Below, piece by piece: positions 8,220-63,537 of a stretch of 64,000 nucleotides of DNA (its first letter is position 1; each line of letters begins with the position of its first letter). The notes below the pieces were generated by a model, which was given only the letters and a program-made list of their open reading frames with translations, was not told the DNA's origin and did not search any database. This DNA is from Sphaerolaimus hirsutus (Eukaryota; Nematoda; Chromadorea; Monhysterida; Sphaerolaimidae): NCBI GenBank assembly GCA_964036195.1, contig OZ038453.1, positions 27,284,997 through 27,348,996 on the forward strand. Reading direction: 5' to 3'. The position numbers were made by a program, and so were the translations under genes.

Positions 8220-8372
8220 CTGGGGGCAGTCCCAGACCCTGTAAAAAGCCCTGTAAAATGTCCAATGTCATGCAACCTAGTTGGCATTTTTCAGGGCATT
8301 TTACATGACTTTTGACACTCTGTATGACGTTGGAGGTTTTTTAGTGCATTTTGCAGGGTCTGGGATTGGCAC
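8220..8372 (-). mobile_element. Introner-like MITE, copy 1
   Basis: Read on the minus strand it begins GTGCCAATCCCAGACCC and ends GGGACTGCCCCCAG. The TIR core (ATCCCAGACCCTG against AGTCCCAGACCCTG) is inverted, while the extreme ends are not symmetrical: one supplies GT, the other CAG. Open minus-strand frames abut both sides in a compatible phase (one base carried), so it could be an intron here as well. The same end structure is seen at 29918-30084 and 18580-18779. Confidence 0.7.
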
Positions 8373-14241: not shown

Positions 14242-14778
14242 CTGGACACTGGAACGGGGCCAAACAAATCCGCTAAGAAAATGTATAAATAAAATGTGAA
14301 TAAATAAATAAGGCAAAAAATAAGTACCCGCACAAAACCCACTCACAACCCGTTAATTGGACGATAAAACCGTATAAAAATAAAGATAAGACGAAAACAA
14401 GATTTACAAGAAAAATACAAATTTCTCAAAAACACGCTGGCACCGGGAAAAATCACTATCTCCGAAACTGCGACGTCACTACATTATCATTGACATGAAT
14501 AGGCGACAAAACCTCTGGCGCGGCGCCAGAAAACCTCGCGCAGCGGCGCTTAAGTGGCGAAAGCAAGTTGGGTACCCGCGTAAATGGAAAAAAAAAGTTG
14601 CATTCCAGCTTCCTGACGCGGCGGCACCTGGCCAGCGGTGGGAAGCGGCGGGGCTTATCTGCAGATAAAAAAGTTTGCATCCGAAACCCATAAAGGATTT
14701 GGCCAAGAGGTGTCAAAATCACCATACAAAAATGCATTTTGCACTCGAAACCCGTTAAGGAACAAATCTGCATGTAAA

Positions 14779-15914
14779 CACCTTCCCGGTCACGTCCGGC
14801 ACCCTATTTTTGATCATACTTGTGACACCCTATCTCCAGTTCTAGGGCGCGCTAGAAGCTGAAACTTGGGGGAGATATTGGCGCAACCCCCCTCTACCTC
14901 GCATGAATTAGGGGGGTCGCGGCGACCCCTCTCAGGGTGGGTCGCCCTAAGTGCAATAGTTTTTGTGGCTTTTTTGGTGTCCCACAGCAGGTCCGGCACC
15001 CGCTGATTTTTGAGCTGTGGGAGTGGTATAAATCTAAAATTTTGGGGATGTGTTACCAACACCACTCCCCTACTATACACTATTCAACCATGTGAGATTA
15101 ACGTGAAAAATTTCTCAAAAATTCACTTATTCTCCAAAAAAACACCACTCCCCAATCGATGGATGACAAAAAATCCACTTTTTGGAACTTTTTTATTAGA
15201 CACTTGAAGAGATGGTTTACAATACTTTAAAGGGAAGCGTTTGATGTTTCAAGTTATGTAAAGAACCATACCTCTAAAATGCATGCATTGCAAAATTTAC
15301 TTGGGGGGAATTTCAAAGTGTGAATTTTGCAAATTTTTGTTCCTGCAATGATGTCATTATGATGTCATAAAATTCGCCCTAAGTAAATTTTGCAATGCAG
15401 GCATTTTAGAGGTATGGTTCTTTACATAACTTTAAACATCAAACCCTTCCCTTTCAAGTATCGTAAACCATCTCTTCAAGTGTCTAATAAAAAAGTTCCA
15501 AAAAGTGAATTTTTTGTCATCCATCTATTGGGGAGTGGTGTTTTTTTGGAGAATAAGCGAATTTTTGAGAAATTTTTCACGTTAATCTCACATTATTGAA
15601 TATTGTATAGTAGGGGAGTGGTGTTGGTAACACATCCCCAAAATTTTAGATTTATACCGCTCCCACAGCTCAAAAATCAGCAGGTGCCGGACCTGCTGTG
15701 GGACACCAAAAAAGCCACAAAAATTTTTTGCACTTAGGGCGACCCACCCTGAGAGGGGTCGCCGCGACCCCCCTAATTCATGCGAGGTAGAGGGGGGTTG
15801 CGCCAATATCTCCCCCAAGTTTCAGCCTCTGCGGCACCCTAGAACTGGGTATAGGATGTGAGAAGTAAAATCAAAAAATGGGTGCCGGACGTGACCGGGA
15901 AGGTGTTTATATTG
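14779..15914. mobile_element. Foldback element with about 560-bp inverted arms
   Basis: The two halves are reverse complements around about 15345. The termini read ACACCTTCCCGGTCACGTCC and the inverted GGACGTGACCGGGAAGGTGT. No coding capacity. The first 45 bp of this terminus also close the inner end of the large inverted repeat on both sides (14779-14823 and 51706-51750), and a diverged terminus is at about 18820. Confidence 0.8.
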
Positions 15915-17660: not shown

Positions 17661-18426
17661 TGCTTCAACGTTGAAGCAGGGGTAGAAAGGGGGTGGGGGG
17701 GCGTTTTTGATGCGTTTTTGAATCCGTTTAAACAAGTTTCTAAAGATGGTGCATTCCTTTACATAACAAAGATTTTTTCGCTGAATTGCGTGCGACCTCA
17801 TTTTTGTTTCGATAAAATGATATAATATTTCAAATTTTTTCTCAGATAGTTTTTTATGCATGGTGATTGGTGCCTTGTATCAATAGCTCCGATTTGCTTG
17901 TTATAGGTTACTTTCAATCGAGTTGTTCTAATATTTATTTCTGCACAGCGGTGTGAAATGTTTTGGCTAGCACCCCTTGCCCCATCGCTGCCTATTCGTC
18001 AGCTTTTTTCCACTTGATGCGAATGTGGTATCGGAAAAGCTAGAAAATATTTTTCTAGTGTTATTGTTAATGCTTTTTTTAGTAATTTCTGTGTACGATC
18101 CGACATGTCGTTTTTGATGTGGCTGAATTGTCGCATGTTGTCTTGTTGCACACTTCGATGACTTGTGCACGTTAAGTCCCTCACGGTTTGTTTTAAATAT
18201 GTTTTTTAACCATGTCACTATGGTTGTGTATTTTTGCACATATCTCCGCAATTTTTCAATGCATTCATTTCCATGCTGCCGCATACCGAAGTTCTTCCGC
18301 ACCGTGCAATAAACAATCCAACCAAATAATGGGCACTTTTTTCCGCGATCACATCCCCCTGTCTCACATAAATCGGACATTCACCTACCGAAATAGCCAA
18401 AATTTCAACACTTTAAACGCTCGAAA
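17661..18426. other. Stretch without a supported gene
   Basis: A 137-codon minus-strand frame (17967-18380) is the longest here. Its composition is mixed, it has no motif and overlaps other open frames on both strands, so I do not call it. The stretch after 18385 on the plus strand may be the start of the exon described for the introner copy at 18580. Confidence 0.35.
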
Positions 18427-18579
18427 ATGTCCCAGTCCCAAACGCTCGGCGCATATTCCGCCGATGCGCGCAAGGACATACAAACCGTTTGCTACGATGC
18501 TGGTTTGGTGCATTGCCGGAGAAGGGGCCAATATGTGGGCCAGTGGTGCGTGGCCCCCTGCTGCGCGGATAGACACCAG

Positions 18580-18779
18580 GTGCCACTCCCAGACCATGTA
18601 AAAAGCCGTGTCAAATCCTAATGTCGGACAAAGTGTCAAAAGTCATGTAAACTGCATTGGAAAATGGCAAACGTACCTTTGCCATTTTCCAGGCCATTTT
18701 ACTTGACTTTTGACTCTTTGCATGACAATGACATTTGCCATTTTACAGGGCTTTTTACAGGGTCAGGGAGTGCCCCCAG
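18580..18779 (+). mobile_element. Introner-like MITE, copy 2
   Basis: Plus-strand ends are GTGCCACTCCCAGACC and GGGAGTGCCCCCAG. The TIR core and asymmetrical GT/CAG ends match the copies at 8220-8372 and 29918-30084. It follows an open plus-strand frame (ATG 18427, ending ...CACCAG) and precedes CAGAGGGG, so removing it as an intron leaves the frame open for a further 12 codons. Whether a real gene is involved here is unproven. Confidence 0.7.
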
Positions 18780-18818
18780 CAGAGGGGTGAGGCTGTGTCG
18801 CCCAGTGTGAGTTGGTAA

Positions 18819-19204
18819 ACACCTTCCCGGTCAAGTAAGCCACCCATTTTTTCCTTTCACTTCGGAAGCTATATCTCGGGCTATGTTGGGGTTATAGAGC
18901 TGAAACTTTGTGAATATATACTTGTAACATCCCTCTACTCTGCATCAATGGGGGGAGGCATGGCGACCAACTACAGGATGGGTCGCCCTATATGCAAAAA
19001 TTTTTTGCCATGTTTTCAGTGTCCCAAACAAGTACACCACCCACTTGATTAGCTACACTAAAGGGGCTGTATCTCCAGTTGTGGGGGTGGTAGAAAGCTC
19101 AAATTGTAGGGGTATCTTGGCAACACCCACCCCTACTATACGGCAGTGGGGCAGCTCCCGACAACCCACTACAGTTTGTGCCACACTGTATAGTTTTTTT
19201 TATT
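18819..19204. repeat. Diverged foldback terminus and low-copy repeats
   Basis: The stretch starts with ACACCTTCCCGGTCAAGTAA, a relative of the 14779 foldback terminus. It holds 'gggtcgccct' words like those in that element. No gene seen. Confidence 0.45.
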
Positions 19205-21693: not shown

Positions 21694-22506
21694 TCCAGAC
21701 ACTGAAAAATTTTGAAAAATATTTCGAAATTATAACTTGGCACATGCGCAAAATTTTTTCAACGTACCAAAAAATGCGCAAAATCCAATAGCAGCCAACC
21801 ATTCTTTCATTTTTGACTATCTCGATGGAAAAAATAGATATTCTTGGCAGATAGTTTAAAAGTGGACTTAAGAAGCGTTAGAAATACAGCAGCCGGACAG
21901 ATTTTTTTATTTTTGATATTTTACACTTGGGGGGAACAGACAAAAAAATGTTTTGGATACCTTAGCTATGATAAGGACATGTTTTCTTTCGCCTCCGCAT
22001 TGGCTGTTTACTAAAATATAATTTTGTCTATATATTTATGAGGAATGTATTTTCGCGTTACCTAGTTTTCGCTTATGCTAGTCAAATATTTGTAATTTGT
22101 GCGTGGGGAAGGGGACGTACAAAAATATAGATATATATGTAAATGTACTAAGACGAATAGAATTTTAGCGAGTGGGGATGACCGTCTAGGCATGGGTTTT
22201 TTTTTTTGGGGGGGGAACCCCACCCATGGAATTACCCCCCCCACATAGCAGAAAATTCCCGATATAAATACCCCCCTAGAAGATTGGCATTCCAAATAAA
22301 AGTGGAAAATTCAGTATATACTCGCTGGATAGCACACTTAGTCGTAGACTACCATAGTCGATCTGAATAATGCTACAGAATTGTAGGGTTGGGCATACAT
22401 CAAATCTGAATCGGTATCTGAATAATGCTGGGCATAGATTTTTCAAAGTTCAGTTGCATAAACACACATGTACTGAGTGCATAGTGATTTGTAAAATATA
22501 CGAAAT
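21694..22506. other. Stretch without a gene
   Basis: AT-rich DNA with C/G runs near 22200-22270 that resemble decayed CCGTATTTCC-family subterminal sequence. There is no continuing retroelement frame after the gap. The open frames are short. Confidence 0.5.
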
Positions 22507-22896
22507 CATCCCTTAAGGTTGTCGATATTGCAATATAATGTATATTGCTTAGATTTTGTCCTAGAAATCATTATTTCGTAATTTGTTGGCTGTCCGCCAA
22601 TTCGCTTTTTATTTTATTTTATCGGGTGGGTTACTTGCATATGTTGTACATTTGTACGCTTGTACATGTATTTTTTTCTTGTCGCTGCCCACATGGTTTC
22701 GGTTGTAGATACTGTGTGCAAAAATGCGACCACACGACTACACAAAAGGCACCTTATGCGAGTAGCCTCACCAAATAAAATAAAATAAAAAAGCGAATTG
22801 GCGGACAGCCAACAAATTACGAAATAATGATTTCTAGGACAAAACCGAAGCAATATACATTATATTGCAATATCGACGACCTTAAGGGATGGTTTG
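22507..22896. mobile_element. Palindromic MITE
   Basis: About 110-bp inverted arms (CATCCCTTAAGGTTGTCGAT ... and its reverse complement, with few mismatches) flank a 160-bp core. Each arm contains 'gaaataatgatttctaggac' or its complement. Non-coding. Confidence 0.75.
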
Positions 22897-22924
22897 GTGA
22901 AAAAATTGTGACGAAATAATGATC

Positions 22925-26100: not shown

Positions 26101-26715
26101 CCAGTTGAATCCACTGACCGACGAGCTACCACTACTGACAAAGGAGCTTCGTCAGGTGATTTTTTAGTTATTTATATTCTGTAACGCACATTATAATTGA
26201 CACAACGATCACGACATTTCATTCATACAGGTGGCACACATGAAAATGCTACATCGTCGGATGTAGTAGTGCAGGGCACCGGTGGCGCAGAGAGCAGGAG
26301 ACAGTCATTTCTGAGATGGGTGAAGGAGCGTGGCAGATTGATGAAGTTGCCCCCAGAGCTGTTGATACAGTGCATGATGGATGCTGCAAAGGATGAACTT
26401 GATCCAGAGTTCACCATCAGTCCAAGCAAACTGAGACAACTGATGCACACGCAGGAGGAAATGGAGTGTGCTGCTGGCATGATTGAGAAAGCAAATGAAA
26501 AGCCTACATCCATGGTGGCGCAAGAGGTTGAATGTGTGGCCCTTGACTTGAGCACAAAAAATCAATACTCTAACAGAGCAGAGCCGTCCGTACAAATTTA
26601 TGAGCCGGTTACCCCCCCACCAACAATGACTGCAAAACTTGTCAAGGCGGATTGTAGAAATGTGGGCAGTGTTGCCAGCACAAAGCAGGTGTCAATTCCA
26701 CAAGTGTGGAGGTAA
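23167..26715 (+). CDS. Seven-exon gene, long frame I (unknown protein)
   Basis: Exons 23167-23461, 23524-23722, 23793-23942, 24034-24599, 24691-24777, 24857-26155 and 26231-26715 all use GT-AG sites and keep one open frame of 1,027 codons with stop. The start is uncertain: a CCCCAG acceptor near 23248 may begin the first exon instead. The protein is Ser/Gly/Arg/Cys-rich in the middle, with an RGRG-like basic patch in exon 2. Only the last exon looks ordered: a helical segment with RRQSFLRWVKERG and LPPELLIQCM motifs. The middle exons have a second open frame (see 23864-26266) whose product looks more protein-like, so part of frame I may be the overprinted one. Alternatively the last exon may be joined to the other frame by the acceptor at 26274. 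No family recognised. It is the left-most gene of the virus-like element. Confidence 0.55.
23864..26266 (+). CDS. Nested frame II on the same exons (unknown, NLS-bearing)
   Basis: A second ATG (23864) opens a +1 frame that passes through the same introns in phase (23864-23942, 24034-24599, 24691-24777, 24857-26155, 26231-26266), 689 codons including stop. It contains a PRPRKRRR nuclear-localisation-like patch near the end of its second exon, an acidic run of about nine Glu in the large exon, and a Leu-rich helical C-terminal region (an ELKKIRELL motif, then LPPLQQLADMV). If the weaker acceptor at 26274 is used instead of 26230, this frame continues into the ordered last exon to 26715. Composition suggests this is a real protein. 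Function unknown; the NLS suggests nuclear action. Confidence 0.55.
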
Positions 26716-26814
26716 AAATAATTAGGGAGGTGAAGGCGCAAAGGTGAAGTAAACTTTTCATTTTTTCACTCCTCAATTTTTTCACTTTTACATTTGTGGA
26801 ATTGACTTCAGGTT

Positions 26815-28391: not shown

Positions 28392-29342
28392 AAAGCAGCA
28401 GCTGCAGCATCAATCAGTAGAATATGAGCTTATGTGTACAGATTTTGTGTATTTATACAAATTGAAATGCATTGCATGTACTATGCACATGTTTAGACAT
28501 GTAGTTGCAATTTTGTATTCATTCAAGTTCACCCAATTCGGGCTATTTACAATATTACATGGGGGTTTGAAGCTCCCCATGTTCACTTGATACAGGGTGC
28601 ACGCCTTTTTTATTTTTTCTTCCATTTTTCAAAAAATGTTTCTTCCTGTTGTACATTGGTACAGGCACACATACACACACACATCCCTCTAATGTACAGG
28701 CAATTTTTTAATTATTTTCTACTTTTTTTCTATGTCATCTTGTATTGCTGCCTATGGTCAATGTATGTTTCACTTCCAATGCTGCTTTATGGTGCATATA
28801 TGTGCAAGTATTTTATTCTGCATTTTTTCTACAGCAATTACTCCAAAACAAAAAATATGAAAAAAACATTGCCGTCACATTGTTATTACATCTTACATCT
28901 TACAGCCATCAAAATATTTTGAAGAACAAGTAGTGTTTCTGCAAATAAAAAAATATATATATGGCTGTGAGATGTTGTACAGCTAGTTACATTTTATTGT
29001 TTTGTGCATTGAATGGTTTAATGTGCCTTGTATTTTTTCACCTTTTGGTTATTCACGTGCTACACTTATTCATTCATTCATTCATTCATTCATTCATTCA
29101 GCTTTTACTCTAAAAAAAAAATATGAAAAAAAATATTGTCATTGTGTTTATACATACAACATTTTACAGTCATCCCTAAAACAACATTGAAAATATATAG
29201 ACCAGGGGAAAAATGTGTTGTTTATATATGACTTTCACAAACAAAGACTGTAAAGTGTGGTATGTATAAACACAATGGTAAAAAAAAACAAGAAGTTGTT
29301 ATTCATTCATAATGCAAGAAAACAAAAAATCACTAAAGATCA
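28392..29342. other. AT-rich intergenic region between convergent genes
   Basis: The region lies between the 3' ends of a plus-strand and a minus-strand gene. It is T/A-rich with several AATAAA-type signals and an ATTC tetranucleotide microsatellite at 29064-29100. The open frames are compositionally biased and not called. Confidence 0.6.
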
Positions 29343-31419
29343 CTAGGCATGCACCTGCTGCGTATGAATGGTGTTCGTGGGGTCTGAAATGTAAAGTATG
29401 CATAGGAAAGCAATAAAATAAAAAATAACAATAGACATACCAATTCTTAAGAACGCATCATTCACAAGCAATGTGTACAATATCGTTCCACCTCGAGGAA
29501 TTGGTCGCGCAAAGGTCAAATTTAGGAATGCGTCGCCGGTGTTCAAAGCCTCCCAACTGTTGCTAAAAACAAAAAAGTGAAATTTGGTGGTGGAACTAGT
29601 AAAAAAGGTGAGGATTAATGGATTGTGGCACATACCTAGTAACCTTGTCATTGCATAGGCTTATGCACACAAAGAAATGACATGATGTGAACTTTATCAT
29701 TGTCAACTCATTTTGAATTGAACTCCATGACTCTAAGAGGCTGTAACATTCACGGAAAATATCTGAACTCTTGTCTGCATTCCATTGAAAGCGGAGTGGA
29801 CGATTTGGGTATAGACGCGATCCTATTTGCACCGAAAGATCAGACATGTAGAAGGGCGAATAGTTGTGCCGAGGCTCGTTTGTCGCTTGTGGGTTGGCCG
29901 CATCGTTTTTAGTCATGCTGGGGGCAATCCCAAACACTGCCAAGTGTAAAGTAGAGTGTCAAATGTAAAGTGTCAATCAAAACAAATAAAAAAATTTCAC
30001 TGAACTTTGCATGACAATGGCACTTTGTATTTGACATTTCATTTGACATTTTACTTTACACTTTACAGGGTTTGGGACTGTCACCAGATTATAATCCCAC
30101 GCGGGAGGCGCCCCACTTGCGTCCCTAGTGCTATTGGCGGCGCAGCCCTCGCACCTTCGACCAAATTCATTTGTCCCACATTATACTGACGAAATGAGTG
30201 GTAGATGCCGTGTGTTTTAACACGATCAGCCAGTGCAATAGACAGTGATGTCACCTGATTGTTTTTTGTCAACGTGTTCACGATGATAGACAAGCGTATT
30301 TTAAAATATATACTCACAGGGTGGATTTTGCGCACAGACAGCTCGATATTGTCAAATTGTATTTTTAATTTGCCAATATATTCTCTTGGCAGTCTGAACG
30401 ATTCAAACATTAGACTATCTGGTACCCGCCTAAGTACAATGGTTAACTGCATGCCTGCATGCCAAGGCTTCGCCTGGAGGGGGGGTGTAGTTTCACAAGT
30501 GGAGCAGTAGAAAATTATTATTATTGACAAGCAAAAGGTGAAAGCTCATTTCACGCTCTACATGCCAAAATGATTTTTTCATGTCACCTGCTCTCCAAAG
30601 TCCAAAGCTAGTCGACCATAAAATTCTTGGCTTCGAAAAACTGGTGCAGATCTTTTTTTAAAATATTCTGTTGCATCCGTGGCAATTAGTTCAGCTTCAG
30701 AATCTTTCATTTCAACCCAGCTGGAAAACAATAAAAAATAATAATAATAAAAGTATACTAATAAAGATACATTTAGAAGGGTGTTGATTTTCACACCCGC
30801 TAGCTTCCAATTGGGTTCTTCTGTAGGCGCCACTTGTTTGTAGTATTTTCTTTATGTAGGCTTTTTTTCCATAATTTGATTCTCGACTCAAAAGCAGAGA
30901 ATTGTGAAATATTTCAATGCCATCCCAGATACTTTCGAGGGGATTTGGAACAAATGCTACAGCATCCTTTAATACAACGGGCTCCTTAGCAAATATATTG
31001 TTTGCCTCATAGGCTTCCTTTATTTCATGTCCATCTTTTGTCTGAACGCGCATCATCAGGTGTAGATGTAGTGATGAAAAATCTAGCAGACCAGTGCTAG
31101 AGGCCACAGTTGTGAACACATCTGTGATAATGATTGCATGCATGCTGAGAAAAGTCTATGTAATTTTTGCCATGTACTCACATGGAGACATTTCATTCCC
31201 ATCGCTTATTAAAAGTAGTTGTTCACGCTCGCAGTGACTAACGTATGCTTGTGTCGGTGGCAGTGCATCTAAAAAAAAGACGTGTTGAGAATCTACACGT
31301 GTGAATACATGTATTTACCTACCCGGTCGAAACTCTGGTGGACATGGTAACAGATGTGAACCACTATCTAATAGTTTTTTTCTCGGGCTCAATATTCGTG
31401 CAGGGTGATTTGAAGCCAT
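29343..31419 (-). CDS. MCP: Major capsid protein, Polinton/adintovirus double-jelly-roll type
   Basis: Nine exons (31419-31323, 31268-31182, 31121-30797, 30720-30588, 30473-30318, 30254-30085, 29917-29636, 29562-29441, 29383-29343) join in phase to 471 codons with stop. Recognition rests on the order of conserved segments of Polinton/virophage-type capsid proteins: an LDFSS strand, a VPNPLESIW loop with a following YGKKAYI segment, an FYGRLALD segment before GMQLTIVL, an LSVRKIHP strand, and near the end ARPIPRGGTILYTLLVN. The protein would form the hexameric capsomers of an icosahedral particle. The intron at 29918-30084 is a MITE. No stop or frameshift interrupts the spliced frame. At about 470 residues it is compact for the family. 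Confidence 0.85.
29918..30084 (-). mobile_element. Introner-like MITE acting as an intron of the capsid gene
   Basis: On the coding (minus) strand the intron begins GTGACAGTCCCAAACCC and ends GGGATTGCCCCCAG. Its halves are inverted (AGTCCCAAACCCTGTAAAG against the complement of CAGTGTTTGGGATT), with 'tgtaaagtgtcaaa' subterminal words as in the sibling copies. Both flanks are open in frame; removal joins TG|C into one codon and restores the conserved strand order of the capsid protein without gap. Unspliced, the gene would stop at once (TGA). Confidence 0.85.
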
Positions 31420-35267: not shown

Positions 35268-37771
35268 CTACTTTTTATTCCTTTTCTTGCCACTACTACT
35301 ACTACTATGATCATTCTGGCTTTTTTTCCCCCTCCTTTTATGTTCTTTATGATCACTACAATCACTATGATCACGATCACGACCATCAATAATGACACGT
35401 GTGGCTTTGTCGCCTCTGCTACTCCTCCTTCTCCTACCACCAGCACCACTAGCATTGGTTGAACTCGCATAGCGGCGGTCGCCGTCGGCGACCGCCGCAA
35501 CACCGCTCAGATTTGCAGAACGCCCCCTCCGGGGGCGTTCTGCAAATGTGGCGGTGGCGGCCCCCCTAGAAGGCGGCCCCTCTCCCCCGTCCCCGGTTCT
35601 CCGTGGGGCGGCGCCGTAGGCGTCGCGAGTCGGCGGCGCGCGCTCATGATCTGACTTTGATTTTTCCCGCTGTTGTTGCTGTTGCTGTTGAAAATTTCTT
35701 GTAGATTGTCTTGTTTGTATTCGATTTGCTGCTGTTGCTGTTGCATTTGATTCATTTTTTCTGCTGCCAGTCTCATGTTGTGCATCATGAGACCTCTGCC
35801 TCTGCCATCGTCGTTTTCGTCGTAATTGTCGATTTCTTCTTCCTCTTCTTTTTTCATCGTCACCTTGTTGTGGTCGTTGTCGTCGATGGAATCCATCAGA
35901 TTGCTGTGGCTTGGGGGGCCAATTTGAAAGTGTGCTCGTGACGGTAGCATGGGGGGAGGTGGTTCTGCGAGGTTGACCTTTTCCATCACTGCTGCGGTTG
36001 CTAAAATTCCTGGTGGCGGTGGTGGAGTCGGCGCTAGTCGATTGCGCAATATTGCGCAATTTTGGCGGTTGGTGTTGGTGGTCGTAGTGTTCGTTCTGCC
36101 GTTCCCTCTCGGAGATGGGGGAGGCGCGCCTGTTGTTGTCGGGTGATGACGATTTTGATTTCCGCCGCCCCCGCCTTTGTTGCCCGCCGCCGCCGCTGCC
36201 GCCTGGCCAGGAGCGTAGTGATGGAAATGATTTTGAACTCCAATCTTGTTGTTTCTGTGATTGTTGTGATTGCTGTGCGTGTTGCTGTCTCTGAATGATT
36301 TCTTCCAGTGAGAGAAGTGATAATACTTTAGTATTATTGTCATGAGCCATTTCTGCGTCAATAGTAGCAGGGCGACTATGGCGATTAGAACCAGCGTGAA
36401 GATTAGCAATACGACCAGGCTGATGGTGATGATCGCTGTTGTTGTTAACAGAATTGCCATTCTTGTTGTTGCTTCTCCGTTGCTTTTGATTATTACTACT
36501 TGTTGTTGTTGTTGTAGTGTTGTTGATATTCCTACTACCGTTGGCAGACTTAGTAGTAGTAAAAGGTACAATGGGAGAAGCGGCGGAAGATAAAGGCGGC
36601 AATGTACTGCCAGGCTGCTTTGCGGCTATCAATTCCTGTCGATAGAAATGTCCTTTTAAAGGGGCCAAATTTTCATCCTGTGGGTCTAATACTAGATATG
36701 TGTCAGGTCTGTCGGGCAATGCAAATCTACGTCCGAGTGGAAAAACTTCACGTGTGAATCTCTCGCGCGCAACCAGTTTTATTGGATTCCCGTGTGCGGG
36801 AGGCGGTCTAGACAGGCGCACCCAGCCAGTGAGCAATGAGAGTCGCTCGTGTGCGGAATCTGCCGCTTCGCGACTTGTCCCAGTGTATACTGTATTTGGC
36901 TGTGCACGCCTTCTTTTGTGTCGCAACTGGCGGGCTATTAATAAAGCGTGCGCATTTGTACTTCTAGGCTGTGAAACCTCGACTGGAGCAGCTCCAAATA
37001 GTGCACGTGTTCTAGTGGTATTCATTTGCTTTTCTATAGCGGGTAAAATGTGAATCCATCTGCGGACAATGGTTCCGCCACCCCCGCCGCTGCCGCCGCT
37101 AGGTTGCTGTTGTGTAATGTCCGCCGCCGCCGCAGCAGCTGCAGCTGTTGTACTACTTGTCGTCGTCGTCATAAAGTACATTTCAAGACGTTTCCGAATG
37201 GTCCGTATGAATGAATCTAGCTTTGGCAGTCGAGTCACATCTTCAGCAGCCGGTGCAAACGTACATTTGATCTGACAATGACCACATGTGTGTGTGTGTG
37301 CGTGCATGTGTGTATGTGAAAAAAATAAATTACCGCATATAGTGCCTTTTGAAAGTGTACAGACATGAAGCAGCGATCAAAGTCGGAACGTAGTCGCATG
37401 GGTGCACGTCCATTATTACGCGACATTATTGTCTTGAATGCTTGCGTAACCTCGATACCAGTCTTTTGCTTTAATGGCTCCATCCAAACTTCATTTGTGA
37501 AATCATCACAGCATACAAAAATATAGCGATAATTGTCATTCACATGCATATCACGCTCTGGCATTACCATCAAATCCACAGACCAGAACCGATCAGGACC
37601 ACTAACGAGAATAGGTAAACGTTCAAATCCACGCCTCCATGATGGATGACCTTTTAAATAATATGCCGGCTCATTTAATAATATGTGCTCTTTCCAAGCT
37701 TCATTGGGTAGATTATATTGTGTCCGTAGCCATTTACCACCACCAATGTTTTCAGCCCACTGTTTATGCAT
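35268..37771 (-). CDS. INT: rve-family (Polinton-type) integrase with long disordered tail
   Basis: Exon 1 is 37771-37334 and exon 2 is 37271-35268, in phase, 814 codons with stop. Residues about 60-180 form the retroviral-type integrase core: WSVDLMVM (first Asp), NYRYIFVCCDDF, the PLKQKTG loop and RSDFDRCF (second Asp). The expected Glu position aligns with the Asp of KLDSFIRTIRKRL in exon 2, spaced 36 residues from the second Asp. A C-terminal barrel-like region (RRFALPDRPDTYLVLD, then GHFYRQELI) is typical of Polinton integrases. I see no N-terminal HHCC motif. About 400 residues of Arg/Ser/Asn/Gln-rich tail follow, overlapped by another frame (35507-36571). Role: insertion of the element into host DNA. 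Confidence 0.8.
35507..36571 (-). CDS. Nested ORF with a transmembrane segment, inside the integrase tail
   Basis: ATG 36571 opens 355 codons in a different frame from the integrase. The product begins with two hydrophobic stretches, the second a convincing membrane span (about residues 43-70, Leu/Val/Ile only) followed by a basic stop-transfer-like flank. Downstream are Pro-rich loops, an acidic DSIDDND and EEEEEID region, and a Gln-rich helix. Two signals of this kind in one frame are hard to explain as noise, but the DNA is trinucleotide-repeat rich, which keeps frames open. Unknown function. Confidence 0.45.
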   Translation of the reverse strand: MYLLLLLSLPTVVGISTTLQQQQQVVIIKSNGEATTRMAILLTTTAIITISLVVLLIFTLVLIAIVALLLLTQKWLMTIILKYYHFSHWKKSFRDSNTHSNHNNHRNNKIGVQNHFHHYAPGQAAAAAAGNKGGGGGNQNRHHPTTTGAPPPSPRGNGRTNTTTTNTNRQNCAILRNRLAPTPPPPPGILATAAVMEKVNLAEPPPPMLPSRAHFQIGPPSHSNLMDSIDDNDHNKVTMKKEEEEEIDNYDENDDGRGRGLMMHNMRLAAEKMNQMQQQQQQIEYKQDNLQEIFNSNSNNSGKNQSQIMSARRRLATPTAPPHGEPGTGERGRLLGGPPPPHLQNAPGGGVLQI

Positions 37772-39814: not shown

Positions 39815-41158
39815 CGTGCGTTTTGTACTTTTGTTGTTGTCGTCGTCGCCTCAAATGTGACCACTTTGCCTTTAACGGCCCTCCGGCTGCACACAGATCT
39901 TTCCGAAATGTCTCGTCTGAATCACAAACACGTTCAATCGCTATTTCTGCGGGCACTGCGACAACCTTTCGCCCAGCTTTGTGACCACCGCCACCACCTC
40001 GTCGTCGATGTTGTGATTGTGGTGCAAATTTCAATTGTCCCGAAGGCTTTGTGCCTTCTTCTCCTACTTTATTTTTGGTGACAGCTCCAAATTTTTCGTC
40101 AATGTCGCCACCAGCCGCGGAAGTAGCACCTAATATGTCAATATCGCTTGACAGTTTTTCCCATTGATAGAATACAAGATCTTTATCCCAGGGAAAAAGT
40201 GAATTTGACAATCTCAACTCGTCAGGAATTGACGGATCTGAGTTTGCAAATAAATATCCAAAATTTTTATCAGAAATTGCTTGCTTATATGCTCCAATGA
40301 ACAGTGCTGGGTCCTGCCAACGTTGAGCAAATGATTTTGTCGTTAATGCATCAGATGGGAAGCTGCAAAGAAAAAATAATGTGATGAAAACATACATACA
40401 TACATACATACATACATGAGGGTGGCAGATAGGCATACCTAAATAAAACGAAGTAAACGCTGGAGCTGCGACTTTGTTTCAAATTCTGAAAAAATAATAA
40501 TATGCATAACAATTATATGCATACACCTAAATGTGTATTTATGTACATGCAAATACCACATTAGCATACCTGCGTGTCAAACAAACTCTGTAGCGTTGCC
40601 ACTAAAGAAATGTTGTGATGTCTAGCCGCACCTTGTGCCAAATCTCGTAAAAGACGCGTTGGATTATTTGCCCCTGTATTATTTCGCCTCTCTCCACCTA
40701 TGTCATCGTCGTTGTCAATCTCAGTAGCGGATGAAAGACTGGCTGAAAGATCATCTAAAACCAGCAATAAATGGGAATCTTTTGTATTTGAACGCTCATC
40801 TAATTCCTCTTTATATTTGACCACAGTGCGCCACGAGTCGCAAAAATCTTCAATTCTGCCAAACTCTGCACATGTCTTTAATGCTAAATACTTTTCTTGC
40901 CAATAGCTAAATAGAAATAGGCAATGATCTGGCGGGTGATCGTAAATATGCTGACGATTTTTAATTAATTCAATTAGTAGTGTGGTTTTTCCAGAATGTG
41001 ATGAATATTTATACAGATAACCTCAACTTGTAAATAATATAGTACATATATATATTTATATATATATATACTATTCATTTATAGTGAAATGATTTGTGTA
41101 AATTCATATCTGATGATCCAAATATAAGCATTGGGAAGGAATGTTGAAGTCTCTGCAT
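39675..41158 (-). CDS. ATP: FtsK/HerA-type genome-packaging ATPase
   Basis: Exons 41158-41110, about 40997-40570, 40485-40439 and 40362-39675 give 404 codons in phase. The Walker A region is MLIFGSS joined to SGKTT; Walker B is LLLVLDDL; a following RHHNISLVATLQ strand, and FAQRW...YGYLFA-like C-terminal segments, are typical of Polinton and adintovirus packaging ATPases. The C-terminal 170 residues are a low-complexity, basic extension beyond the usual domain. The P-loop is split by a 112-bp insertion that lacks GT-AG ends (separate entry). Role: pumping DNA into capsids. Confidence 0.75.
40999..41110 (-). other. 112-bp insertion in the ATPase P-loop, not a GT-AG intron
   Basis: The insertion is AT-rich (contains TATATATATATA) and is bounded by a TCATCA direct repeat (41111-41116 and 40999-41004). 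No GT donor occurs before the in-frame TGA, so a canonical intron cannot restore the frame. Removal of one repeat plus the insert, or an AT-AC intron (ATATG...TCAC), both restore a GxxxxGKT P-loop. Confidence 0.7.
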
Positions 41159-44037: not shown

Positions 44038-47000
44038 CTATATGCGATTATAACCATATGGATAAGTTTTAACACATGATGCACCACCTACGCCTGGGGC
44101 AATAAAGAAGCGCTTATTGGAAACAGGTTTATAATACTTTTTCCGTCCATCAATCGATATCTTGAAATCTTTCGACAAAAGAAAGTTGAGCTCGTTAACG
44201 CCCAATTTCTTTAAATCGGTTTTCTCCAAAAGGGATCGGGCAGCATCACACATATTTTCGTAGGACACTGTGGGCTTGCGATTACTCTGTTGTGCCTGCT
44301 CATCCGTTTCTGCTGCACTGGCAAATCCGCGCAATCTCACCGTCCTGTATGTTTCACCATTGACAGTATGCTTTGCAGTGTAGGCATATTGCTTTGGCTA
44401 TAAAGAAAAGAAAAAATTATCATTTTAAATCCCACAATAGCCATCATTAACCAACCCCAACAATGCAAATGTGATCCAATTTATATTGATCCTTCAACAC
44501 TGGAGTCAACTGCCCCAAGTGATGTCCACACAATGCTTGCAAGTTTGACCCATCCAATGTCATTATTGAATCACTGTATATTATATATCCACATTTAAAT
44601 AATAAAAATTTACATATAAATGCAACACAAAAAATCAAGCCAACGTGTCTGTATATAAAAGTGCATCTTCAGGCACCTTCAACATTGCCTCAAATAATTC
44701 TACTCTGGCATATCCTGTCACAAGGGCTGTGATGATTGGAACACTGAATGCATTGTTTGGACCCACATGCGCCAGAGTTGAGTCTTGATTTATTGAATGT
44801 TGCACCATTACAGACGATTGTGTCCCCAATTTTAAAGGATCCGCTGAGCCAAAATGCTGAAACAAATAACAAAAATATGGGTGACACAACTTTCAAAAAG
44901 AATTATAATCTCATACCTGTATCCAATGAACATTCACATTTGGGTTTTCAAGAACCTTTAAAAGACCTCCATGGTCAGTGAAAAATTCTGTGTTGTGGGA
45001 TGACTTCTTCTGTGCAAATTTTCCAATTAGTGAATTGATCATCAATTTTGCTACTGAGCGCTTGACTGGATTTGGTGCAAAGGACCTCGGTGCAATATAT
45101 ATTCCAAATCGTTGAAAAATTTCCTGAGAGTACTCTTCTGCACTTTTGCCTGGTGGAAGCTCTGAGAAAAAACTACACCTTTTCCTTCTTATAATCCATA
45201 ATCTTAAAAACACATTAAACTGACCACTCGCTTGACATTTCAGCTTGTAAAACGCCAACATGAATGCACTGATCAATCCTGAACTCACACCAGCCTCCTT
45301 TGACCATACACGAGACTCATAAATGTGGGCCGAAATTATTCTTACAACTTTCAAGCCTGCATGTCTGATTGCCGCACCTACTTCAACCTGAGTTTTTCAC
45401 ATTCATCATACAAAAAGTTTACATAGAATATAAAATATATGTGGTAATGTACCATTGTCCACGTGCCGCGGAATATTTGCTCTTGGAATGTATGCCTGCA
45501 AATGTCTGCATTCTGCTCAACGCAACATGATGCACATGTACTGTAGAATATCTTCTCATCTCCATTTGGCAGATTTGCACGAAATGGCAATGGTGGAATA
45601 AATACATCAGCTTGTGGATAGTGGACCCAAGCCTTCACAACTCCAAAATTGCCCTGCAAAAACTTTATATGTATATATGTGACACATATAGACATAGAAA
45701 TCATAAGTCACACACCAAAACCCATTCATTCAGATCACCCGCAATGGCCCCCTCTGTGACAATCTTTCCAGGTCCATGTGCCATTGGTTTCGTCAGACAC
45801 ATTGCAGGATACAAGCTGCAAAAGTCCAAAAAGTCTGCACTTGGTGCACAAGCGCCCACATTAGTATGTGTTCCAATTTGAAATGTGTCAATTCTGCCAC
45901 CTAAAAATAAAAAATACTTGTTAAATGTGCAAAAAATTGCCACCTCCTACAACTAACCAAAATTTGCATCATACACATTTAATGGTTTATCAGATAGTGC
46001 CTCTGTGAAAAACTGTTTGAATAGCCTGTTTGTACTTAACACATTTCGACATTCATGCTCCCAATATAAATCATAGTGCAATGGTTGTACAGCCTTAACA
46101 ATGCTATTGGCACGAAAATAATCATATTCCCGAACTTGCAATGGCGTTTTGCCACCGAGCAATGTAAGTGGTCTGTGTCAATTGATCAATTATTGTAATA
46201 TATCTATAGTGAACATATTCAGTGGCATTAAACAAACCGCGTTGCCGATAGATGCTTGGTACACATGATGCAAGCGTGGTAGTAACAACCATGGATGTCG
46301 ATCAGCCGAGATGGAGCGTCAGAGTTAGGCTCAAACTCTGCACCGTCCACTTTGAAACGATGATTGTTGCCACAGTGTACAACATATTCACGCTCGTTGC
46401 CAGCATGTTGCACGTGAACCTGAGTAAGAATAGAATATAAATATTATTCACAAGTTGTCATTAAATAATCATACCCCAAAATATCTGCTGTAGGCGCTGA
46501 GAAAAGCCATTGAAAATCGACTGTTTCGATCGACCAGTGCTTCGCCACGATAAATTGCCAATGTATTCTCTTGTAAAAATCTAGCTGTGAATATAATTAA
46601 AACACATTTCACAGTTGTCATGTATTTTGAAACAAGTAAAAATTTCACACACTTTGAAAAACACGTAGTGTCAAGCCCGAGATTGTAAATGTGCCAGACT
46701 CTGCAAACAGATCCACATCTAACAACTTTATCAATTCCTCCCGAAACCTCATTGCCGCATATGATAAAGCATAACTATCCCTTTGACAATATACAGACAT
46801 TTCCTCAGCCACGTCAAACACTTTGTCATAGTGTGCAGCATGATAAGCATCAAAATCCCTAGAATTTCGCCCTGATGCCGAGAATTCCCACTTTGGTCTA
46901 AGATGGCAGTATGCATCGGTGACATGCTCCTCATTCAAATCGTAGCAAAAAAAAGACTTTGCCACTGGAACCTCAAATGATTTGCACAAGTTTTCCAATG

Positions 47001-49468
47001 ATGTAGGTATATAATTAGCCCAGCATATCATTTTGATACCACTGTGAAACTTGACATATAAGATTCTGTTCCCACGTGAAAACACAATCTCTGGAGTTTT
47101 ACATTGGGCAACCAATGCAGATAGTAAAAACTGAAAGTCAAATCTACTCCCGAAATGACTAACAATGGTTGCATTCGCATTTTCTGAAAATATTGGTTTA
47201 TGTAGATAAAAACAAATATAGTAGAATATTAAAAAAAACATACCCATGCAGAAAAAGCTTTCAACAAATTTGTCAACACAGTTTTCACCACGCCATACAG
47301 AAACTCTTGCAATGCCACATCTCCTACATGACTCATGCATATCCTTCTGCCAGCAGAGCGAACATGAGCTGTAAAAAACCTAAAGGTGCCTCACTTGCAA
47401 AATTATTGTAGTATGTATGATAAGCAACTTACACAACTGTGGTTAGCAAGTTTGCCTTGTGTAAATTAGTTGCTCTACAAATTCTAGTTTCTAAATCCAA
47501 AAAAACAATTTTCTTTGCTCTTTGGACTTTATGCGGGGTCAACACGGGCAGATAGCATGCATCATGCTGCTCGCCCATTGGAATCTGTTTTTTGCAATAT
47601 CCACAACCAAAACTTCTTTGCTCTGGGCACTTGTGAGTGTTCACATATGCCCCATTGCGATTTGCCAGGCTGAAATAATGCCCACATGCAGGACATAGAC
47701 GTTGACTGTAGCATTTTGGCTTAGCCCATCTGCCTGTACCTTGTACATATAGATGCTGCCTATAAAAAAACAATATAGATGTACAATCATACATTCAAAG
47801 TCTACTGGCTTTACATTGGATTCAAAAACTAACTCAAAGCACAATGTGGAATAAAAATTACGCAAACATTGCTGACATGTTCTTTCCTCACCATTCACCT
47901 TTGGACAGTCTGAAAGTAGACTGGTATTCGCAACATTTGAAGGTTTTGGAACAATGCCACAATAGTTGCATCTGAATGGGCACACATGCCTGGAATATAT
48001 TTATAATGCATATTAACATTGTGCACACTATACAAACAAAGAATATGGGCAAACCGTTTTCGACCAAAAAACACCTCCTTGCATGTGTCACAGTAGCCGC
48101 GTGCACTCAAAAATGTCACCAACCCCCATATGACCGCAAAGAATATATTGCCACCATGGTGATACAGCATGATATCTATCACATGTCGACTTGAAATATT
48201 AAAATCGCCCCATATTTGGTCTTTTGTCCCTTCTTTAAAAACCCTAATGGCAACATCCTCCATCATTGGTGCACCTTGAATTGAATTTAGTGAACCCAGA
48301 CCCACAAATACATTTGCAGGTGGTAGTTGAGCCTCTGTGCGCAGCTGCGATGCCAGCCTTTCCAGCTCAATCGATGGGCTCTTTTCACAGTGGCGTCGAA
48401 TGCGACGCCAATAATTTCGAGAGTCGCGTCCCCTATTGGGATTGAATGCCCTTATCTTGCCCAGTGCCAGACATATGGCATACACAAGTGTCTGCTCACA
48501 TGATACCACAAATTCACAATGCTTCCTTTTTTTACTCAGCAGCATGGCTTGACGCAAACGTGCAGTTGTAACATCTTGATATACGGACCTTCTCCTACCT
48601 CCACTTAATCTGCCTACAGTGCCATAATTTGTCAAATTGCTAAAGTCTTCTCTTAGAATTGTGTCAGATTCGTCAGACTCATTGTCAGCATCTATGAAGC
48701 ATCTATCCATATTGTATGCAGTTGTGGCATTAGAAGAACATGGCTGATCTACCAAATCTACAGATCTAGGGATACATGGGGCATATGAACATGATGGTTG
48801 ATCAGCTGGATCCATTATCTTTCTGAAAATTCAAATGTTCATATATAGTATACATGAAATAGGTAATAATTTTGTTAATATAATACTTACCAACAGTGTT
48901 AACAAATAGAACCATAGAATTATCAGATAAATCTATTGTCTGGTGAGAATTCAATAAATTAGCAATGTCCTGTGCTGCAGCCACTGGACTAAATCGCGAT
49001 CCCAAGCGAAAATGCTCTACGTACGCTGTAAAATAAAATCATAATTCATTTCTGTCATCATTACTGTAACAAAGATCACCTACATTCTGGCAAACTCTCA
49101 TGCTGCAATGAAATCCCAACATATAAATCTGATGGGAGACGGTCGCCGACAGAATGCCTAAAAAACTTTACATACAAAATGCCACATCATACATAAAAAC
49201 ATTTATAATAAATGTCAAACCTGAATACACAGTCAATGGCTTCACTCAATACCAAGCTAAGGTTTAAATGACTATTTAGGTCGTGAAAAACAACTCTGAA
49301 AGCATCCAGATTCAGTTTGAACCTTTCCACATGTTGAGAGTGTGGCTTCAAAATAGTGAAAAACTCTCTACTATATAGGATACCACTGGCTGGTCGACTT
49401 CTTAAAACATCTTCCAAAATTGTTTTCCTACTCCTTGAACCCCCAGAGCTTGTGGTGTCACCATCCAT
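44038..49468 (-). CDS. POLB: Protein-primed family B DNA polymerase, 17 exons
   Basis: All 17 exons use GT-AG sites and sum to 1,482 codons in one frame: 49468-49221, 49157-49084, 49025-48891, 48805-48055, 47989-47785, 47755-47433, 47368-47244, 47183-46653, 46584-46475, 46419-46238, 46172-45958, 45900-45716, 45653-45453, 45387-44917, 44856-44645, 44573-44456, 44397-44038. The exon 3/4 join needs an internal acceptor (CCAG at 48806-48809); exon 4 has its own ATG (48815) as an alternative start. Exonuclease motifs: FLDLET, HFGSRFDF and YCQRDSYAL. Cys pairs precede them. Polymerase motifs: a GGR, then DFCSLYP (A), NSLIGKF (B), and YTDTDS (C), which is split by the intron after exon 15. A KxYAY-like GPKQYAY follows. 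The gene copies the element using a protein primer; it appears intact. Polinton and adintovirus polymerases are usually of similar type but not this intron-rich. Confidence 0.85.
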
Positions 49469-51099: not shown

Positions 51100-51565
51100 T
51101 TGGCACACATCCAACGTTGGCACTTGTCCAACTCTGGTACTCATTGGCACCTATCCAATGCTGGCACTTGTCCAATACTGGCACTCGTCCAACATTGGCA
51201 CACATCCAACATTGGCACTCGTCCAGCATTGGCACTCGTCCAATGCTGGCACTCATCCAATATTAGCACTCATTCAACATTGGCACTTGCCCAACATTGG
51301 CACACGTCCAATGATATTTTAGGTAAGTGTTGGACAAGCGCCAAGTTGGACAAGTGCCAAAGCTGGACGAGTGCCAACGTTGGACTAGTGCCAGTGTTGG
51401 ACAAGTGCCAATGTTGGACTCGTGCCAATATAGCGTTGGACTTGTGCCAATACTATTGGACAAGCGCCAATCTAGTATTGGGCGATTGCCAATAGTATTG
51501 GACAAGCGCCAACTATATTGGCACAAGACCAACTTTTATTGGACACGTGCCAATGACGTCACTGG
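51100..51565. repeat. Minisatellite hairpin (ttggcac...tccaac units)
   Basis: About 51100-51310 holds tandem 17-18-bp units around TTGGCACTCGTCCAACA; about 51330-51565 holds the same unit in reverse complement (GTGCCAA...TTGGAC). The two halves can fold on each other, with a short loop near 51320. Open frames through it are repeat artefacts. Confidence 0.8.
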
Positions 51566-55356: not shown

Positions 55357-56420
55357 CAGGGTTGGTTTTATAAAAATTCATTTTAGTAAAATTGTATAAA
55401 AATTGTATAAAAATTGTATTTTATTTTTATTTTATTCTTGTTTCATTTTATTTTATTTTATTTTATTCCCAAAAGTCGTTAATAAAATAAAATGACACCA
55501 TTTTACAAAAATTTTACATTAATTTTACAAAAATTTTACAAAAAATCGAAATCATGCATGCAAGGCCAGAAAAATGTTATCATTAGACCTAAACATGAGT
55601 AACCTGTGACAAATTTTCCCATTACTTTACAAAAGTTGCATGCAGTAGGTATTGTTAGCTCGCTGCAAGTGTAAACTTACAATTATTGATGACAATTGTT
55701 TGCAATTTTAGAAGAAGGACTACTGGACTGTGTTGGGCGCATTTGTAAAATCTCATGCAAAGTGTCAATTGTCATGACAAATGTAAAGTAGTGTCAATTG
55801 TCATGCAAAATGTCGAGTGTCATGTCAAATGTCGAGTGTCATGTCAAATGTCAAGTGTCATGTCAAATGTCATGGAAAGTGTAAATTGTATATCCAAATC
55901 TTATGTTTTGTCTTCGCATGTTCACATAAGATTTGGATTCAAGGACAAGATTTGGATACAAAATGTAAGATTTGGATAAAGAACATAAGATTTGGATACA
56001 AAACAAGAGTTGGATACAAAACATAAAATTGGGATACAATACATTACACTTTAATATATATATTTGCCATGACAATTTACACTTCACTAGTCATTTGCCA
56101 TGACAATTGACACTTTGAATGGCATTTTACATAACATTTGACACTTTACAAAGCTTGGGACTTCCCCCAGTCCCACAAATAAACAAGTAGAAACTCAAGC
56201 AACAAGATAAAGATTTTACAAAAAATATGAATTTTTATACAATTTTACAAAAATATGAATTTTTATACAATTTTACAAAAATTTTACAAAAATTCAAATT
56301 TTTATACAATTTTTATTTTTATTTTGAAATTTTCCATTTTATTTTATTTTATTTTATTCTTAAATTTTCCATTTTATTTTTATTTTATTTTTATTTTTTT
56401 CAGAGATTTTGCCAACCCTG
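55357..56420. mobile_element. hAT-type MITE with CAGGGTTGG termini, carrying a nested element
   Basis: Ends CAGGGTTGG and CCAACCCTG, flanked by the 8-bp duplication GTGATGAT (55349-55356, 56421-56428); the left arm is the empty site. Subterminal 'ataaaaattttac/attttattttatt' runs are inverted. A nested segment (about 55735-56170) ends in GGGACTTCCCCCAG and has 'aagtgtcaattgtcatg' words like the introner family. Confidence 0.85.
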
Positions 56421-59565: not shown

Positions 59566-62500
59566 TCAATTTTCACAATTACCATTTTCCATGTGGTGTT
59601 CTACCTGTTGCGCTGGAGCATCCTCCGGTGGCAGCGGGATGGCCTCGACCGCGTCGTGGTGCTCGGGCGGTGGTGAGGGGGGCTCGGTCGCGTTCTGCAA
59701 TGCCATGGCCGCCATGTCGTTGCTAATGGGGGAATAATCTTCATTAGGGCGGTAAACTGGCTCAACAACGGGCACCACCTCTTCCACCACCGGTACACCC
59801 TCCTCCCGCGCGTCCGCGGAGGAGTCAAAGCCTGAGGAGGCGGTTTCAATATCAGATAGAACTTCTGCCTTCAGTTCTTCTTCAAGGGCCGGGTATCTAT
59901 CCGGTCCGACTAGTTCTTTCAAGTCGGCCCGCGGGCGCCATTCCGGTGGCCAGAATCCCAGCACGTTTCCCCAGATTTGGCCCGATTTGTAAGAGTAAAT
60001 TCGGTCGGCCATGTGCTCGACCGTCAGAAACTGGTGGAAAAAAGTTGACCACAACATGGTCTCGGTGTTGGCCACCACTATGCGTACACATTTGGCGCGG
60101 GAGGTGGCTACATTTCCCCGGGGTAACTCTGCTACAAATCCAACTCTACCGTACGCCTTCTTGGGATCGGCATCCAGTTGGGCGGAGTCGGTTGGCGGGC
60201 TGCCGCGCACGCAGGAAATGATGACCACTTCCGCTTCACGGGCCTGAGCTTTGTCGGCGGTAATTACGCGGGTGGCCCAGTAGGCCGCGTCGTGTTCTGT
60301 ATGGGCTACTAGTCGACTGATTAGGGCGCGCGCCTGCGCCGCATAAAAGCACACAATTAGCAAACTAGCAGGATCTGTGAGATCCGCCCAGGGTAGGGTG
60401 GGATCTTCCTTCACAGTGGCTACGAAGTAGTCGTACAGGTGCAAGATGATGCGCAGTTCTTTCTTGTTGATAATTGACATGCCCTCTTTCGATTCGCAGC
60501 CCTGGTGCACCAAAGTCGATGACAGCATGACGCCGTCCTCGAAGTCGCCAGGCGATTGCAACATGGTGGCGCCGTGCACTGCCGTGTCGTTGTAGGCGCG
60601 TAGCAGTCCGTTGTACGCCGCCACAGAGTTAGCCTGAATGAGCTGGCGATGCCCGCGGAACACTGTTTCCAAGTGAACCACGGGACATAATTGGTACTGT
60701 GTGAGCCTATCAATGAGGGTGGGGTCGGGTTTCAGGATGGGCTCCACCCAGTCTTGCACGCCAATCATACGTGTCAATTGTTTACTGTCTCCAAATAGAA
60801 GTAGCATGCCGTTCACTGGGAGCTGGGCCGCCTGAACCACGCTAATTACTGCAGCGTCAGATGCCAATGACGCTTTGTCAATAATTACCGCACACGCAGT
60901 CACACTTTTTATATGGGCGTCGTGGGCGGAGTCTAAAGTGACATGGATTTGACCGGGCTCCACCACTTCCAAAAACACACGGTGCAGCCTGACCGTAGCC
61001 CTGACATATTTAGACAGCGCCCTACGCAGCACTTTACCCCAGAACCCTTGGTCAGCTAAACTAGCTGCTCCAGCCCGGGCGCCCGCCACGCCTTCCTCAA
61101 AGTCGTCAAATGGCTGCTCGTCCCCATCCTCGGCGGTGAGAAAGGGCACTTGTTCGGTCAGCTGCGCACGGATAACGGCATCGTCCGTGCAGTTGTTGAT
61201 GATCTCGTCCACCAGTTTGTAGTCCTTTTTGGCGCCGTCATACTTTTCCAGCGCTGCCGTCCATTCGGGGCTGAGGCGGACAATGTTGTGGCCGGTTCGC
61301 TGTGCTAGGGTGTGCAGGGTTGGTAATTGGGTCGCGGGGGTGGTGCTATAAGTAGCATCACTTTCCCACATGGGGCTCAAAACGCGCACCGGAAATGCCG
61401 CTCTTAATTTCAAAAATTCTTCGAAACCCTCCAGTTTTTGCATTTCAGAAAATGGCGTATCAGCCATAGCGGTCCATTTCGCGCGTTCCTGCAACAGAAC
61501 TTCCAAAGCCCCAAAAATGTCCCGCTGCCCTAATTTATTCAGGTTGGTCAGGGCCCTGCGCGCTCCTTCGTCGGCCGCCGAGTTGACCGTGCACGTGATG
61601 AGCGTCGAATGGTATTTGGCATTCGGCTGCTTGTCAGATGGCAAGTCGGAGCCTGCGCGTACCCTGGGTCTCGTGTTGTAGTAATTATAGCCGCGAGAAC
61701 ACACATACACCAGTTGATTTTGTGTGGTCGTCTTCCCAGACCCGAAAGGCGAGTCACACATAATCAAAAGGGGTTTGCGCATGCGCACGGCTGTTATCAC
61801 AGCTCCTAAAACTTCTACCTGTCCTTGTTGTGGCAGGAACTCACCTAATTTGGCTTGAATCATTTGTTCATTTTTTCCCCTGAACAATGATTCGTACAGC
61901 TCATTAGCCTCGCGGCTAATTAGCGCCCAGTCAGTTTCGTCATCCAGCAGACGCAAATTCAATATCACAGCTAATTGGATTTGCGCCTCCAGGGTGAGTA
62001 CTTTTGACCCCTGAACCACTTTTGGCACCCAGCCGACCGGCGCTTTGTTCAGGGCGGCCTGCAGTGACCGCATGGTTTGGTCATAATTGGGCGAGTCGTT
62101 TGAGCTGCGCACCATGTACCTTCCACTCTCCAGGGTACGGGGCAGTGCTGATTGTGACGCCGCCATGTCCAATTTCGCACGCAGCATTGTAGTGGTTGGC
62201 TCTGATTCCACACTGGTAATTCTCACTGACAAATTGGGGCTGCCCGCAGCTGGTTTGTCTTCGTCTGGTCGGGCCTGCACCAAACTCAACACTGACATGG
62301 GCGTCGCCTGGTTCAGCAGCTGTGTCTGCGTATTCACCTGCTCCAGTAAACGAACGCGCTGCTCTTCTGGTCCCTCAAAAGTGTCCGCTTGTAATTCCTC
62401 TGGGTCCGGGCGGCGCACCATAATGTCACATGCGGTGCCCTGCGGCGTGTGCTCCCAGAACACATGTGCGCACACATCCGTTGCGCGTTTCGCCCGAAAC

Positions 62501-63537
62501 CGCAAAAATGACTCGTTGTAGCAGTGGGCTGCTGCTAAAATACTGATTTTGTACCTCAAAAATATGTCCATGTTGTCTCGGTTTTCTGTGTCCGGCTGAA
62601 CGCCCGTTGTGCTGATGTCCTCGGCCGTGGCGATTTGCAGCCCGTATGCATGGCCGTAAAATTTGTCACCAAACACATCCAAGTCATTCAGGTCGTGATA
62701 CTTGACATGGGCCAGTCCCAACTGCCCAGCGCTCAAAGTTTCCACTCCGGGGTCACTCACATATTTGCGGTGTAAAATGACCAACTTTTCCGGCCCTGCA
62801 TCGCCTCACTCCGCCGCGCCCAGCGGTTCCAGGTTCTTGTAATTTGAAGGCGTGAAGGCCGCTCGCAGCCGCGCTGTTTTCCAGTCGCTTGTATACAGCT
62901 GGTAACCGGAAGTGTCGCCTCGTGTCAACGTACGCGCCGCTTGAGTGATGCGCCTTGTGCCCTGCGTACTCACTACAATCGGGGCGGCAATATTCAAGGG
63001 GCATTTTGTCTGGTTACCCCAGATCGCAACACCGGTGAACTCCCAGTATCGCGGGTTTTCTATTTTCTGTGCAATCGCGGTCGCTGAAAAATGCATGCCG
63101 TGATGCACCAGGGGCAAAAACATCGAGGGGTGCTGTTTCTGAATTCTTGCGCACAGATCCACCAGCTGGGTGGTCCGTTTGTCTCTAGCCGCCTTGGCCC
63201 GCTTATTTGAGTAATAGAAATACGGATATGCCTCATCCGCATTCACCCACTGCTCGTTTTCACTGAGTATCGCCATCGTTTGCTCAGAAATTCTCACATG
63301 GCATTGATACTCAACATGCCCGTCTGCGCCCGTGTCAATGTACACTCGGTCTACCCAACCTTCAAATTTCCCTCTGCTGGGGTAGATTTCCGGCCCGTTT
63401 TGCATCTGCTGCGCGCGGTAAAGTTGTCGCGGGGGAATGGTTCCACCGCCGCATGCGCCATGCGTATTTGTTTCTTTGAGCTTGACGGGCGGGGCGTCTG
63501 TGCCTTCAAAAGGGCGTTTGCGAGAGGCCGAAGCCAT
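59566..63537 (-). pseudogene. UPF1-like SF1 helicase, one in-frame TGA
   Basis: One frame of 1,324 codons from ATG 63537 to the stop at 59566 is broken only by a TGA at 62808-62806. The second part has SF1 helicase motifs in order: DSPFGSGKTTT (Walker A), VIIDKASLAS (motif II, where DEAS would be expected), LLFGDSKQLTR (III), LETVFRGH (IV), VITADKAQAREAEVVIISC (V) and GNVATSRAKCVRI (VI). The first 243 residues before the TGA are globular but not recognised. The C-terminus is acidic. The lack of introns and the location next to repeats suggest a mobile-element or virus-derived gene. The TGA may be a recent nonsense change, a readthrough stop, or a sequencing error. Confidence 0.7.

Follow-up and report, generated by a model that had tools for sequence, protein, structure and literature searches.

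A terminal-inverted-repeat element as a likely spliceosomal intron of a predicted capsid gene in a Polinton-like element of the nematode Sphaerolaimus hirsutus

The introners of Aureococcus and Micromonas described by Huff et al. in 2016 are said to be MITE-like: they reportedly have inverted repeats, and bring their own splice sites or borrow them. Introners are known from 175 of 3325 genomes, in the extracts of PMC9860276 that are drawn on here. By the definition in the extracts of PMC12768974, two or more introns of the same genome are introners if they resemble one another closely and lie in unrelated places. The same extracts count 69 candidates in mirusviruses, of which the major capsid gene holds 21, and suggest that viruses spread introners. 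A survey of cryptophyte Polinton-like viruses mentions group I introns (PMC12220804, in extract).

The locus described here lies in 64,000 nucleotides of Sphaerolaimus hirsutus (assembly GCA_964036195.1, contig OZ038453.1, forward strand, 27,284,997 to 27,348,996); "the window" denotes this whole stretch, and positions are counted from its first letter. Reading of the sequence suggests, with a probability of about three in four, that an inverted-repeat family element at 30084-29918 is a spliceosomal GT-AG intron within a gene predicted to encode the capsid of a Polinton-like element. If so, a jumping gene would have created an intron inside an integrated virus, and the locus would offer a concrete case for base-level tests of the origin of donor, target and splice sites.

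The inverted-repeat element and its relatives

Element C (29918-30084, minus strand, 167 nt; as read, a phase-2 GT-AG intron) starts with GT at 30084 and ends with CCCCCAG at 29918, the edges that the original prediction had assigned to it. That C is a TIR element, as was also claimed, is plain: its arms align over 57 columns with 88% identity (7 of the 57 columns differ), at a local score of 72, while none of 300 shuffles scored above 32. The inverted-repeat core lies 4 nt in from the GT edge and 7 nt in from the AG edge, so that the splice sites, as read, are the asymmetric outer bases of the element. Terminal inverted repeats, short length (153 to 200 nt) and occurrence in three copies are features of MITEs and TIR DNA transposons. 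With 10-nt flanks, the RNA of C has a predicted fold of -64.6 kcal/mol (z -7.1), as any such inverted repeat would. Rfam (at the gathering score) and a tRNA scan gave no match; a group I or group II intron was rejected for C on the grounds that Rfam has no match and the ends are GT-AG.

The two siblings that had been predicted were found in their places with the same ends, GT...CCCCCAG: copy A (8220-8372, minus strand, 153 nt) and copy B (18580-18779, plus strand, 200 nt), both with no recognised gene around them. Gaps not counted, C is 75% identical to A over 146 aligned columns (z 9.4) and 79% identical to B over 154 (z 8.7), end to end in both cases and against 200 shuffles; A and B are 85% identical. 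These shuffle z-scores are the real test of kinship: the nhmmer E-values of the three copies are circular, because these same copies went into building the model. The end pattern GGGANTGCCCCCAG, itself derived from A, B and C, has four matches in the window with at most one mismatch, against 0.06 expected: the three copies and 56157-56170, the last belonging to a distant relative of the family that lies in pieces at 55744-56170 (plus strand; ends GGGACTTCCCCCAG).

When the three copies are aligned together with their flanks, similarity stops, by eye, at GT and at CAG and does not continue outwards. The edges are GT and AG in all three full copies, and the splice dinucleotides are thus part of the family's ends. 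GT is preceded by AG in copies A and B and by TG in copy C, and all three end in AG: on three copies, either the element carries both of its splice sites, or the AG is a 2-bp target duplication.

Are the siblings introns as well? The claim that they lie between compatible open frames was not confirmed by comparison with random positions: the shorter side of the best joined frames has 37 codons for A and 12 for B, and of 19300 random positions 6479 (34%) reach 30 codons, 4315 (22%) reach 40 and 14451 (75%) reach 12, so that the best frame pairs stand at chance level. Pfam recognises no family in ORF 18197-18601, which adjoins copy B. One of the three full copies is therefore a supported intron, since no gene is recognised around the other two. 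The termini of the family gave 0 and 0 matches in viral contigs; the 3' terminus has 20 exact matches in prokaryote contigs, all in bacteria-titled records and by our estimate about what chance would yield in 257 billion bases.

Other repeats share the window. Next to copy B, at 18815-19005, lie pieces related to a large inverted repeat at 14772-15912 (arms of 359 and 204 nt, 95% and 89%); 22500-22898 is a 399-nt element with 121-nt arms that are 93% complementary; and 51125-51431 has 17-nt repeats in tandem, after which comes their inverted counterpart.

The predicted capsid gene and its carrier

The predicted capsid gene (29343-31419, minus strand) runs from an ATG at 31419 to a stop at 29343, with 464 whole codons free of stops. 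Its exon chain, drawn by eye, has nine exons and eight GT-AG introns, in agreement with the ninefold split first described. The introns are 54 to 167 nt long, and C, between exon 6 (30085-30254) and exon 7 (29636-29917), is the longest; it occupies its intron entirely, with no intron sequence left outside. An empty site, lacking the element, was not found. A terminal inverted repeat is found in this one of the eight introns (0 of 500 shuffles as good for C, 75 to 477 of 500 for the other seven), a result that lends no support to the claim that the family explains the intron richness of the element. The donor of C, GTGACA, is also the donor of a repeat-free intron at 30587. Downstream of the stop, at 29140-29277, is a 138-nt element with 32-nt arms that are 94% complementary.

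Removing C joins ATC TG|C ATG, while retaining it stops the frame at TGA 30083; the restored codon and the immediate stop were both correctly foreseen. Frame restoration alone is nevertheless weaker evidence than was stated: any exact insert in an open frame restores that frame when cut out, and the 12 GT and 8 AG near the site make 32 frame-compatible GT-AG pairs. C qualifies as an intron candidate because the element itself has GT and AG at its edges. Codon usage in the flanks puts the proposed frame best of three, not significantly (the scores are 3.4 for 59 codons, where the 95% point is 12.1, and -4.2 for 93 codons, where it is 19.2 as given for 90 codons), and the test is too weak to decide. 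If the arms of C were identical at insertion, each has since changed by about 6.7%, and a neutral region of 464 codons would be expected to have gained about 4.2 new stops; none is seen (P 0.015), which favours a gene in use after C inserted, although the argument is biased, the exons having been chosen for being open, and takes the arms to have started equal.

The capsid identity is a prediction from motifs read by eye and from the neighbours. The motifs, which we take to be capsid-like, were read in the original prediction and again here. Searches with the capsid ORF and its pieces, protein searches included, gave no match bearing on capsid identity, and those with the predicted gene gave none to a double jelly-roll major capsid protein; since no search supported the name, it stays a predicted one. 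The pieces have no relatives in viral contigs or by protein search, and PHROGs, run on eight pieces, returned at best an E of 0.084 for ORF 30081-30545, to a family of unknown function.

Polintons have a protein-primed polymerase B and an integrase on the same strand. Here, pieces of a type-B DNA polymerase (PF03175, above cut-off) occur in two minus-strand ORFs, 44911-45396 and 46645-47379, the matches lying within the former and at 46645-47184 (E 1.7e-14 for one frame). The integrase core (PF00665) has a weak RVE match at 37340-37600 on the minus strand, a position computed from residues 668-754 of the integrase frame (E 1.7e-5; 25.5 bits against a curated cut-off of 32.6). It is these surrounding matches that make the carrier Polinton-like. 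An exon at 40561-41022 is P-loop-like and to the eye resembles part of a packaging ATPase; Pfam and PHROGs have no match for it. Viral contigs held no relatives of the polymerase pieces, the ATPase-like pieces or ORF 26197-26715. A search for long terminal inverted repeats of the whole element gave seven ungapped pairs of at least 60 nt in 20000-58000, none of them enclosing it (shorter, gapped or more distant ends would escape this search), and it is because no enclosing repeats were found that the element is named Polinton-like only. Elsewhere in the window, 59566-62805 (minus strand) is an open frame of 1079 aa containing an AAA_12 helicase domain, for which a protein search gave no relative.

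A second inverted-repeat element, unrelated to C, lies at 26689-26811 (plus strand, 123 nt) and reads as a phase-0 GT-AG intron. Its arms, which start GTCAATTCCACAA, give an alignment of 44 columns and two gaps, a figure that stands without a shuffle control. CAGGT is present on both sides (26686-26690 and 26809-26813): either a duplication that supplies both splice sites or mere splice consensus. If the element is read as CAG|GT...CAG|GT, an open frame of 164 codons continues in phase 0 into one of 253. A stop at 26713-26715 and an ATG at 26815 allow another reading, that of two separate genes. The window has no further perfect copies of its end. Between 26000 and 50000, 21 inverted-repeat pairs no more than 700 nt apart were listed; three have arms longer than 30 nt at 78% or better, and two of these three, C and 26689-26811, read as introns.

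Proposed mechanism and rival explanations

The best reading of the C site, taken by itself, is a DNA-transposon-derived intron. A non-autonomous DNA transposon (a MITE, its transposase not seen in the window) would have entered an open frame, its asymmetric ends, GTGMCA and TGCCCCCAG, giving donor and acceptor; the acceptor might come from the MITE end itself, or from that end and a 2-bp AG present at the target. After that, the host spliceosome would cut out the whole insert, with no codon gained or lost, perhaps aided by a hairpin of the two arms of C, predicted in the RNA, that could juxtapose the splice sites.

Might C instead be an ordinary MITE that broke a decaying Polinton gene and is never spliced, its GT and AG incidental? 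The chance-level frames around the siblings and the further inverted-repeat elements in and around the Polinton-like element fit such a history. Against it stand the open codons of the remaining exons, free of stops despite the divergence of the arms, the presence of seven more GT-AG introns in the same gene model, and the exact placement of GT and AG at the edges of C; a broken gene is, on balance, unlikely. Those seven other introns can also be turned to a different use: introns being common in this gene, an older one may have stood here into which a MITE later inserted, so that most of it was replaced or hidden. This reading was rejected because no intron remainder lies outside C: the ends of the element, as its alignment with A and B fixes them, coincide with the splice sites; the chance that this happened seems very small.

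A misnamed gene is a somewhat better prospect than a broken one, though we still think it improbable. The gene may not encode a capsid protein, or its exon chain may be partly wrong, with C still an intron or else part of an untranslated stretch; this would be compatible with the best explanation. The capsid name went without support in every search, and single-sequence structure models of two contiguous capsid pieces are of low confidence (pLDDT 32 and 46). In the other direction, a capsid gene is to be expected where polymerase and integrase matches lie nearby on the same strand, and capsid-like motifs were seen on both readings.

The transposon-derived intron can be extended to a wider proposal, which is tentative and in our judgement probably goes too far: that a family with ready-made donor and acceptor ends put introns both into the nuclear genome and into a Polinton capsid gene, that the Polinton carries introners between hosts, and that 26689-26811, with its CAGGT duplication, would be the same process, occurring twice in one element.

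Comparison with known introners

The likeness of C to the Aureococcus and Micromonas introners is one of description, and target duplication here amounts at most to a possible AG. In the extracts of PMC9860276 the introners are TIR elements that resemble one another and have their splice sites at the ends or close to them, as here; the Acanthoeca families among them have TIRs without target duplication, and the methods treat AG as ambiguous, from duplication or from the target, which is the very ambiguity met in the C family. What differs is abundance and setting: those introners are many similar introns, whereas here intron status is supported for one of three copies, the one inside a virus-like element. 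Set beside the definition given at the outset, the window holds three similar elements, one of them in a supported intron and two, A and B, in frames at chance level. The introner elements of Amoebophrya (PMC7789003, in extract) likewise have inverted repeats at the intron ends and predicted hairpins, but their splice sites are mostly non-canonical, with direct repeats of 3-5 nt, where C has GT-AG.

How new is the case? Among the matches listed, the open-access literature on introner, virus and capsid together consists of the mirusvirus paper alone, and an introner in a Polinton does not appear, though a paper that treats double-stranded DNA viruses as vectors of introners may report one; for Polinton with spliceosomal intron, or with MITE, intron and capsid, none of the open-access papers listed is on the subject by its title or the start of its abstract. 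A mobile element that makes introns in a viral capsid gene is nothing new in kind, because the mirusvirus candidates are known (PMC12768974, in extract). They are similar introns and, as C is read to do, lie inside viral genes. They come, however, from another group of viruses, which is known through environmental genomes, and are defined by mutual similarity, the phrase "terminal inverted repeat" being absent from the main text of that paper. Unlike the mirusvirus candidates, as far as those extracts describe them, the intron proposed here has a Polinton-like carrier, inverted repeats, and copies outside the carrier in the same scaffold, and it is these three that would be new.
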